This document shows positions 41,915 through 44,881 of a stretch of 54,898 nt of DNA, piece by piece. This DNA is from Planctomycetota bacterium. GTDB taxonomy: Bacteria > Planctomycetota > Planctomycetia > Planctomycetales > Planctomycetaceae. The stretch lies in assembly GCA_003671275.1 (NCBI GenBank), contig QWPB01000009.1, positions 1-54,898 of the forward strand, written 5' to 3'. Each line of letters opens with the position of its first letter. The first letter of the stretch is position 1. Position numbers and translations under genes: made by a program. A model generated the notes under the pieces. That model worked only from the letters and a program-made list of their open reading frames with translations, was not told the origin of the DNA and did not search any database.

Positions 41915-42664
41915 ATGAACACGATTGGCATTATCCCCGCGCGGCTGCAGTCGTCCCGGCTGCCGCGCAAGCTGTTGTTAGCGGAAACCGGGAAGCCGCT
42001 ATTGCAATATGCGTGGGAGGCGGCGTGTCGGGCCTCGGAACTGTCCGATGTGATCATTGCCAGTGATAGTGAAGAGATCACTCAAGTCGCCCGAGCCTTT
42101 GGCGCGCGTGTCGAAATGACAGGCGAGCATCCCAGCGGGACCGATCGGATCGCCGAAGTCGTTCGGCGGGCCTGTCCCGAGGCCGAGTTGATCGTCAATG
42201 TTCAGGGGGACGAACCTGAACTTGAACCCGAGAATATCAACCGCCTCGTCCAGCTGATCGCCTCGCGACCCGGCTGCGAAATGGCCACGCTGGCCACGCC
42301 GATTCGCACCTTGGCGGTGCTGAACGATCCCAGTTGTGTGAAGGTGGTTTGCGCCGCCGATTCGCGGGCGTTGTACTTCAGCCGGTCGGTGATTCCCCAC
42401 TTGCGGGATGGCCTTCCCGAGACCCGGCTGGCCGACAGTCCATGGCTGTTGCATTTGGGGATCTACGCGTACCGCCGGGAGTTCCTGCTGAAGCTCACGC
42501 AGATGGAGCCGTCTCGATTGGAGCAACTGGAGAAGCTGGAACAACTTCGGGCACTGGAGTCCGGGGCATCGATTCTGGTACACACGGTCGCTGAGCGCTC
42601 GGTTGGAATCGACACGCCCGCCGATTATGCTGGCTTCGTCGCAAGGAAAGCAAACCGTTCATAG
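41915..42664 (+). CDS. kdsB: CMP-KDO synthetase with an altered C-terminus
   Basis: Activates 3-deoxy-manno-octulosonate with CTP for outer-membrane lipopolysaccharide. The 249-residue protein has the family start IGIIPARLQSSRLPRKLL, the VNVQGDEPELEPENI motif (metal/nucleotide site) and HLGIYAYRREFLLKL. ATG 41915 is preceded by GGAG at about seven bases. The last residues read KANRS and lie next to the insertion junction; the second copy of the 3' end at 44808-44881 reads KASR instead, presumably the original terminus. CTP for this reaction would come from PyrG, whose gene was the ancestral neighbour. Confidence 0.94.
   Translation: MNTIGIIPARLQSSRLPRKLLLAETGKPLLQYAWEAACRASELSDVIIASDSEEITQVARAFGARVEMTGEHPSGTDRIAEVVRRACPEAELIVNVQGDEPELEPENINRLVQLIASRPGCEMATLATPIRTLAVLNDPSCVKVVCAADSRALYFSRSVIPHLRDGLPETRLADSPWLLHLGIYAYRREFLLKLTQMEPSRLEQLEKLEQLRALESGASILVHTVAERSVGIDTPADYAGFVARKANRS
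42588..42651 (+). repeat. 64-bp direct repeat, left copy (within kdsB 3' end)
   Basis: Identical over 64 bases to 44808-44871, starting TCGCTGAGCG and ending AAGGAAAGC. It encodes the last part of KdsB; after it the left copy continues with codons for N-R-S and a stop. The flanking bases differ on both sides. Confidence 0.95.
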
Positions 42665-42746
42665 TTCTGGTACGGGATGTAGTCGGTACGGAATATGGAT
42701 TAAGCCACAATTAGGCGATGATGTGAGCCGATGAACTCGCATGGGA

Positions 42747-43331
42747 TCACTTCATCGTCGAATTGTCAACAAACTGAAACGCATGTCGATAACACCATAC
42801 TCCCACTTTTGTTCGCTGGTAATCCCCATTTGGATTTTTTTCTGTGGGGTGTATCCAGAGATGCATTTCCTGGGGGACTCCGACCTTCCCGTTTTCTAAT
42901 CCTTTGCCTCGCAAGAGCGAACAAAACTGCAAGACGTTTTCACCTCTCCGGGGCGGTGGCGGGGCGTAGTTTTTGAAATTCGACGGATGACCGACAAGCA
43001 TTGATGGCTGCTTGTCAAAGCGTTGATGGTGAGCCGTTATCCCACTCACATCGCGATACGATTCAGGGTCAACAATACACAAATCCGCTTCAAAATCGTC
43101 ACTCTGGCTCATGCCTGGCGGTATTGGACATCGAAAACGAATCACAACGAAATCATCGAACTCGATCCGATTCGGAATTGGTTTTCCGTCGACTTCGGCG
43201 GTGATCTGAAACGCCTCTGGATGATAATAGGAGAAATCCGTTTGCAAAGGATCTCGGATGAACTTCCACCACCCGAAACACGCGATTGCGATCAGCAAGG
43301 TTGCCTTCAGCCCCCACTTCAGGAATGTCAT
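42747..43331 (-). CDS. Membrane-anchored protein of unknown function (element cargo)
   Basis: A 194-residue protein with an N-terminal transmembrane helix (residues about 7-23, GLKATLLIAIACFGWWKF) and a large outside domain rich in Phe, Tyr, Pro and Asp. The phrase RFRCPIPPGMSQSDDFEADLC may be a beta-sandwich edge. No family recognised. Its ATG directly follows the stop codon of the DUF1559 gene with no gap, so they form one transcript and probably act together. Confidence 0.75.
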   Translation of the reverse strand: MTFLKWGLKATLLIAIACFGWWKFIRDPLQTDFSYYHPEAFQITAEVDGKPIPNRIEFDDFVVIRFRCPIPPGMSQSDDFEADLCIVDPESYRDVSGITAHHQRFDKQPSMLVGHPSNFKNYAPPPPRRGENVLQFCSLLRGKGLENGKVGVPQEMHLWIHPTEKNPNGDYQRTKVGVWCYRHAFQFVDNSTMK

Positions 43332-44267
43332 TTAAAATTCTCCTACGGTTTCATTCCCATTGCGAGTGCCAATCGCTCGCCACACTGTCAATTCTACGCT
43401 ATCCGCCACGGATCGCACCGATCCATCGCCCATGAGGACATTCACATGCCCTGCATGTTCACTCGATGCCGGGTTTATGTAGTAGTAAATTGGCCCATCC
43501 CCATGGGAACCCGAGCCCGTACACGCAAATTCATTCGGTCCCAGCGTGTGATCGTATCCAAATCCAAAAATCGCTCCAGAAGTATAAGAAACAATGGGAT
43601 AAAGCGAGAGTCGATTTCCACGGCAGTCGCTGATCAGCGCATCAATGTCGGCATAGCTCGAAGGGAGACGCCAAAAGTAACGACGGGGGTCCGCTAGCAA
43701 TTCCGCTTCGGTCACATGGCCATCTGTGGGCGGAATCAATAATCGTTCGGCAACCGCCACCGTATTCGACAGCCCATCGATGATCTCGGACGCCTTAGTG
43801 TCTCTTGACGGGATCGGCCAAGGGGGATCAATGGAAAATCCATTGTCCCGAAGTCCTCGCGGATAATAAGAGATCGTTGGATTGTAACCATCCAGGACGA
43901 CGCCGTTATTCACGAGATAGCTAGTGTAACTTCCTCCATCATCAAATCGGTGATCGCTCGGGCACTTCCAATAGGCGGGAGAACCCGCGATGAACTCTGT
44001 GATTCTTAAAGCCACATTTCGAGAAGTTGGAAAGGCCCGATGTGCTGCCTCATGTTCATGCATTGCAAGTCCGAACTGGTGCAAGCGATTCCGGCAGTCG
44101 GTATTGCGAGACGACTCACGGACTCGCTGCACCGCCGGAAGAATCAACGCAGTGAGCAAGCCCACGACGGTGATCGAGACCAGCAATTCGATGATCGTGA
44201 AACCCGATACGACGGAGGGCTTTGCAGTTCGTGGAATCATGATCGGACCACATCGGGGATCATTCAT
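43332..44267 (-). CDS. DUF1559 protein with prepilin-type N-terminus
   Basis: A 311-residue protein. The prepilin cleavage/methylation motif is GFTIIELLVSITVVGLLTALILPAV (cut after G, Glu at +5), followed by the DUF1559 opening RNRLHQFGLAMHEHEAAHRAFP. The C-terminal H-x-G-x-xNVLMGDGSVR block is the other DUF1559 hallmark. A start at ATG 44240 is also possible. DUF1559 proteins occur in dozens to hundreds in planctomycetes and are thought to form or decorate pseudopilus-like surface structures. Cysteines in CPSD and TDCRN are present. Confidence 0.93.
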   Translation of the reverse strand: MNDPRCGPIMIPRTAKPSVVSGFTIIELLVSITVVGLLTALILPAVQRVRESSRNTDCRNRLHQFGLAMHEHEAAHRAFPTSRNVALRITEFIAGSPAYWKCPSDHRFDDGGSYTSYLVNNGVVLDGYNPTISYYPRGLRDNGFSIDPPWPIPSRDTKASEIIDGLSNTVAVAERLLIPPTDGHVTEAELLADPRRYFWRLPSSYADIDALISDCRGNRLSLYPIVSYTSGAIFGFGYDHTLGPNEFACTGSGSHGDGPIYYYINPASSEHAGHVNVLMGDGSVRSVADSVELTVWRAIGTRNGNETVGEF

Positions 44268-44292
44268 GCGATGAGTCTTGCATGCGGTACAC

Positions 44293-44649
44293 TCAGTATG
44301 CTGTCACTTCGCCACCAGCACCAGTGATGACAGTCCCCGTATCGAGTCCATTCATGGAATCCTTGCGAACTTTGGTTACATACGTGTTCCCAACAATCAA
44401 TAGGTCGTCGCTCAGTTCCGCTCCGTGCAGTTTCGGGAATATCGGTGATTGCACATTCAATAACTCCGCAGCTGCGACGAACGTGAGTGTTTCCACGGGG
44501 GGCATCCCCGTCACAGTCTTCTTGTATGCCGTTCCCCACACCCCCGTGTAGTCATTGTTGTTCATATAGCTGATGTAAACCTTGCCCGCTTGTGCAGTCC
44601 CGCACACCAACACAAGGGCACACATTGCGATCCGCGTTTTCCTGATCAT
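44293..44649 (-). CDS. Small secreted protein of unknown function (first gene of element operon)
   Basis: A 118-residue protein with a clear signal peptide (MIRKTRIAMCALVLVCGTAQA, cleaved near QAGK). The mature part is short, beta-rich and glycine-containing; no family recognised. It is the promoter-proximal gene of the leftward operon in the inserted unit and is preceded by the 14-bp tandem repeat at 44661-44730 in its leader. Confidence 0.7.
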   Translation of the reverse strand: MIRKTRIAMCALVLVCGTAQAGKVYISYMNNNDYTGVWGTAYKKTVTGMPPVETLTFVAAAELLNVQSPIFPKLHGAELSDDLLIVGNTYVTKVRKDSMNGLDTGTVITGAGGEVTAY

Positions 44650-44660
44650 CCGATTTCTCC

Positions 44661-44730
44661 AAAGCGAAGTAGCGAAAGCGAAGTAGCGAAAGCGAAGTAG
44701 CGAAAGCGAAGTAGCGAAAGCGAAGTAGCT
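44661..44730. repeat. Five tandem copies of a 14-bp unit
   Basis: Unit AAAGCGAAGTAGCG occurs five times without interruption (44661, 44675, 44689, 44703, 44717); only the last base of the final copy differs (T for G). It lies in the 5' leader of the 44293-44649 gene, between the candidate promoter and the start codon. Confidence 0.97.
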
Positions 44731-44742
44731 CGCCTGCCATTT

Positions 44743-44771
44743 ATGCTACCGCACAAAAAAAAGACTGTCAA
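44743..44771 (-). promoter_or_regulatory. Candidate promoter of the inserted operon
   Basis: On the minus strand a perfect TTGACA (plus 44771-44766) is followed after 17 bases by TAGCAT (44748-44743). The spacer contains an oligo-T tract. Transcription would run through the 14-bp repeats into the three cargo genes. Confidence 0.65.
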
Positions 44772-44807
44772 TCCAGGCTCATTTTTGTAACATCGGATCA
44801 TTCCCGC

Positions 44808-44881
44808 TCGCTGAGCGCTCGGTTGGAATCGACACGCCCGCCGATTATGCTGGCTTCGTCGCAAGGAAAGCCTCGCGATAG
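44808..44881 (+). pseudogene. Duplicated 3' end of kdsB (right repeat copy)
   Basis: Bases 44808-44871 repeat 42588-42651 exactly; reading on in the kdsB frame gives [15 protein letters not shown] and then FVARKASR with a stop at 44879-44881. It has no start and is not a gene. It probably marks the original end of kdsB, displaced by the inserted unit. Confidence 0.9.

Follow-up and report, generated by a model that had tools for sequence, protein, structure and literature searches.

The window, by which we mean the whole 54,898-nucleotide stretch of planctomycete DNA analyzed here, contains kdsB for 3-deoxy-manno-octulosonate cytidylyltransferase (positions 41915 to 42664, plus strand; Pfam PF02348, 6.9e-50) and, downstream on the same strand, pyrG for CTP synthase (44959 to 46575; PF06418, 1.5e-121). 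Between them lies an inserted unit of 2,156 bp (42652 to 44807), flanked by two copies of a direct repeat. Sequence comparison within the window found 64 identical bases at 42588 to 42651 and at 44808 to 44871 on the plus strand, spaced by 2,220 bp; extended leftward to 42585 and 44805, the match covers 67 bp with one mismatch. The left copy consists of C-terminal KdsB codons and carries kdsB to its end ...FVARKANRS, the last residues KANRS coming from the insert. The right copy, which keeps the region of the probable pyrG promoter described below, continues in frame to the old KdsB end ...FVARKASR, with a stop at 44881, 77 bp before pyrG. The initial annotation had described both the perfect repeats and the two alternative gene ends, and our comparison confirms them.

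The unit carries three genes on the minus strand, the DUF1559 operon that had been recognized from the sequence at the outset. The first gene (44293 to 44649) encodes a 118-aa protein with a signal-peptide-like N-terminus that belonged to no known family in profile searches but has a counterpart in a genome of another genus (G029). The second (43332 to 44267) encodes a 311-aa DUF1559 protein matching PF07596 (4.6e-29; 102.7 bits, cut-off 23.3) and, above cut-off, TIGR04294. Like the DUF1559 paralog families of planctomycetes, it combines the PF07596 domain with a prepilin-type N-terminus (TIGR02532, 17.9 bits versus 16.3; PF07963 below its cut-off) and a C-terminal H-X9-DG motif; its predicted structure, at pLDDT 36, is too poor for use. 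The third (42747 to 43331) encodes a 194-aa protein with an N-terminal hydrophobic helix and a predicted beta-sandwich, for which no Pfam or NCBIfam family was matched and whose middling model resembles generic Ig-like folds only. A minus-strand consensus match, TTGACA-N17-TAGCAT (44743 to 44771), is the probable operon promoter; since it lies 36 bp inside the right end of the insert, the operon probably brings its own promoter and is probably self-contained. Directly upstream of the first gene, a 14-bp unit, GAAGTAGCGAAAGC, is repeated head-to-tail (44661 to 44730), and this unit is absent from the other genome stretches examined. The GC content of the insert is 50.9%, versus 60.0% in the rest of the window; twelve-kilobase stretches from other parts of the genome have 59.0%, and its other DUF1559 genes 57.4% on average.

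An exact match of this length is far beyond chance expectation, and the 64-bp sequence occurs only twice in the whole 5.03-Mb genome, both times in the window. Other long exact repeats, searched for in about 0.6 Mb of the genome, are tandem gene duplications and a dispersed repeat resembling an insertion sequence (IS) end. The assembly is a draft of 198 contigs, and an insert of deviating GC that is missing from a congener is what one would also see if the unit had been wrongly joined at the kdsB end of a draft or metagenome-assembled genome. Yet contig ends in this assembly have about 96 to 99 bp in common, which points to a final k of about 99; this exceeds 64, so that assembly would have spanned the repeat. 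Moreover, both flanks of the unit touch 64-bp copies, and some molecule must bear both junctions. On the length of these overlaps we rejected the idea, raised in the initial annotation as a possible refutation, that the repeats are an assembly artefact; an origin by k-mer overlap is unlikely, and we hold misassembly in general to be highly improbable.

Comparison with relatives produced the empty site that the initial annotation had proposed to look for. In the congener G001, whose kdsB is 81% identical to that of the source genome, kdsB and pyrG are separated by 176 bp with one copy of the site, and the two genes are directly adjacent in most family members. When 170 family genomes were searched for the motif, the source genome (G000) was the only one with two site copies in cis. 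Another candidate, G119, was set aside because its two kdsB variants (L224 and L225, 91% alike) lie on separate contigs and probably represent two strains or gene copies. The unit itself is single copy in the source genome, with no dispersal within it. A screen of 397 class genomes returned a single counterpart, the G029 operon, which has the same three-gene order, with protein identities of 30, 42, and 24%, at a different locus between different genes and with no flanking repeats; G061 was considered as the uninterrupted counterpart of the G029 locus and dropped, its synteny being too poor. Searches of viral, phage, and plasmid sequences yielded no copy of the unit, merely distant DUF1559 proteins on planctomycete plasmids, and a first contig scan with the DUF1559 protein as query gave no match. 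The patchy presence of the operon at different loci, together with its deviating GC content, points to horizontal gain, and the unit has the look of a recent insertion gained horizontally. Recombination can occur between direct repeats 2.2 kb apart, and if both copies are under selection, an old insertion whose copies were kept identical by such recombination might look similar; however, none of the 64 bp differs, even at positions under neither codon nor promoter constraint, and a recent event explains this, the empty site in the congener, and the unameliorated GC content more simply. We regard an old insertion as the least probable of the readings considered.

Promoters that lie inside an upstream gene and overlap its 3' end are a known kind, and the repeated stretch appears to contain one. 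Within the last kdsB codons it holds a sigma-70-like motif, TTGG(A/C)A-N17-TATGCT, which keeps a constant register across the family relative to the Val-Gly...Tyr-Ala codons. As in intragenic promoters generally, -35 and -10 hexamers with 17-bp spacing are written into upstream-gene codons; unlike them, the overlap in kdsB is conserved across most of a family, and an insertion has copied it as a single block. In the source genome the motif reads TTGGAA-N17-TATGCT in both copies, on the plus strand. The right one (44823 to 44851) lies 107 bp from the pyrG start codon, within the family range, and is the probable working pyrG promoter. The left one (42603 to 42631), apparently the ancestral pyrG promoter motif inside kdsB, now lies 2,327 bp from that codon and points antisense into the operon.

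Analyzing 26 pyrG-adjacent kdsB genes over 160 conserved codon columns, we found that the codons underlying the motif are among the most fixed. The -35 valine codon is GTT in 22 of 22 genes, the most fixed column of all, and the -10 codons rank third (Tyr as TAT) and fourth (Ala as GCT, 22/25), whereas these kdsB genes use GTT and GCT at background levels of 19% and 17%. This codon signal is absent in 12 kdsB genes without pyrG within about 450 bp. Half of those belong to the same family (G023, G029, G016, G033, G030, and G007), so taxonomy alone does not explain the difference. In G023, two minus-strand reading frames stand between kdsB and pyrG, and the motif is lost. Allowing up to two mismatches, the motif is present in 113 of the 170 family genomes, with no hit for a reversed-motif control among the genomes listed, and at each of the 17 loci retrieved with an exact motif, pyrG begins 70 to 331 bp downstream. 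In most genomes with pyrG next in line, synonymous codon choice thus keeps the motif fixed, and genomes without pyrG there lack it. There are also relatives with pyrG close by and no motif (G004, G005, and G025; G009 was not scorable), so pyrG can be driven by other means. As expected of a sigma-70-type pyrG promoter, two hexamers at a 16- to 18-bp spacing are preserved more strictly than the encoded residues require, and only next to pyrG; we infer that the motif is probably a pyrG promoter embedded in kdsB and active as such. The new point, which escaped the initial annotation, is that the repeated stretch would then contain the overlap of the KdsB C-terminus with the probable pyrG promoter, giving the duplication a likely function. 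That kdsB probably conceals the pyrG promoter in a planctomycete family is also directly testable. Further downstream, the pyrG leader contains a palindrome with a 12-bp stem and a T-containing tail, CAGCGGGGGACGCATGCGTCCCCCGCTG (44906 to 44933), which is also found in the congener G001 and occurs once in 0.6 Mb of the source genome. It could be an attenuator hairpin, but as a conserved feature of pyrG it was discarded, being inconsistent across genera.

The initial annotation had interpreted the repeats as the footprint of site-specific integration, and the empty site in G001 supports the part of this reading in which a discrete unit was inserted where kdsB ends. In this scenario, a recombinase supplied in trans placed the unit, an element without its own integrase; the kdsB 3' end served as attB, and the two repeat copies are attL and attR. 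A duplicated gene 3' end, a gene restored with a slightly altered terminus, and a discrete insert of deviating GC form the classic footprint of such an event, and eight tyrosine recombinase (PF00589) genes elsewhere in the genome could have supplied the enzyme. The recombination mechanism itself fared less well. None of the eight is on this contig (the search covered tyrosine recombinases), and no third copy of the site that a recombinase would be expected to match exists in the 5.03-Mb genome or in viral contigs. Moreover, an inverted-repeat core within the 64 bp is not significant (p = 0.43), no further occupied site turned up in the 170 family genomes, despite conservation of the site in over half, and the G029 counterpart lacks such repeats. 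No cognate integrase was thus found on the contig, and no related element with the same att site in the genome, in viral contigs, or in the 170 family genomes. A DD(E/D) transposon or IS finds no better match in the unit: the best end-to-end 20-mer match is 12/20, with no convincing terminal inverted repeats, and none of the three operon genes is a transposase. Placement by a recombinase in trans is therefore possible but rather doubtful.

Cis-mobilizable elements (CIMEs), which have lost their integration and transfer genes and kept attL and attR (PMC5704250), are among the closest known comparisons. Like them, the unit is flanked by direct repeats, one of which is a gene 3' end, and has no internal integrase or transfer gene. 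Unlike them, it has no known parent element at the same site, and in 170 family genomes nothing else was seen to occupy that site; it is also only 2.2 kb long with one operon, and its repeats hold a probable promoter that both neighbors need kept. It could be imagined that a whole class of small integrase-less cassettes moves planctomycete DUF1559 operons through a trans-acting recombinase at gene ends where a promoter becomes doubled. If true, each cassette insertion would give every neighbor a working copy, but we consider such a class improbable.

We favor, with slightly better than even confidence, a one-off, recent horizontal insertion of the DUF1559 operon whose duplication was retained by selection on the overlap of the kdsB end and the pyrG promoter, and we give it a small lead over the action of an integrase in trans. 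What is observed comprises the repeat, the congener's empty site, the contrast in composition, the diverged operon at another locus in G029, and the fixed codons of the motif. From these, we propose that a three-gene operon with its own promoter, encoding small secreted-looking, pseudopilin-like DUF1559, and membrane-anchored beta-sandwich proteins, entered by horizontal transfer and was inserted a single time between kdsB and pyrG. This event would have left a 64-bp duplication spanning the last KdsB codons and the probable pyrG promoter, of which the left copy would complete kdsB, with KASR changed to KANRS, and the right copy would hold the promoter at its normal distance, while the left motif would be predicted to fire antisense into the operon. 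Because the end of KdsB overlaps the probable promoter, a large insert within or after the overlap would either disrupt kdsB or separate pyrG from that promoter, and duplication of the overlap spares both genes; selection can therefore explain why an insertion of this type survived, and the duplication was presumably retained since one of the two genes would otherwise be lost to the insert. Selection accounts for the survival of the duplication and not for its origin, nor does it cover the full length of a 64-bp repeat around a 29-bp promoter. The joining may have occurred by fill-in of a staggered break, by a template switch, or by a single crossover of a circle with the kdsB end; the evidence favors none of staggered-break fill-in, single crossover, and integrase action over the others. 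More tentatively, we would attribute it to a one-off illegitimate or short-homology event and not to a dedicated integrase. The case illustrates how a newcomer can be accommodated where space is tight and one gene's end holds the promoter of the next, namely by copying of the overlap, and it argues against taking every gene-end repeat for an integrase scar.

DUF1559 (SBP_bac_10, PF07596) proteins form large paralog families in planctomycetes, with 74 genes in Rhodopirellula baltica (PMC2754498) and 68 in Planctopirus limnophila (PMC10632474). Unlike DUF1559 paralogs at large, the operon described here represents a rare lineage, its two small partner genes being present in 2 of 397 sampled class genomes. 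The limited set of open-access literature mentioning DUF1559 that we covered contains no description of DUF1559 mobility. The initial annotation had seen in the unit a general route by which DUF1559 families multiply and move, but in some 48 stretches of the source genome no gene-end repeats surround other DUF1559 matches, and the motif search of 170 family genomes revealed no other doubled site. A 79-bp repeat on contig C54 was discounted as a gene-end repeat, since it is dispersed and resembles an IS end. At this locus (L134 of G000; 5375 to 5473 and 2906 to 2984) a DUF1559 gene is interrupted by the apparent IS end, which recurs in the genome as some 14 complete or incomplete copies, several of them where contigs terminate; the incomplete one at 2906 is isolated, close to a ribosomal L21 gene. 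Tandem gene duplications are found at the DUF1559 loci of contigs C123 (8047 to 9928, L126) and C115 (3590 to 5140, L123), and tandem duplication is one way in which the DUF1559 family multiplies in the source genome.
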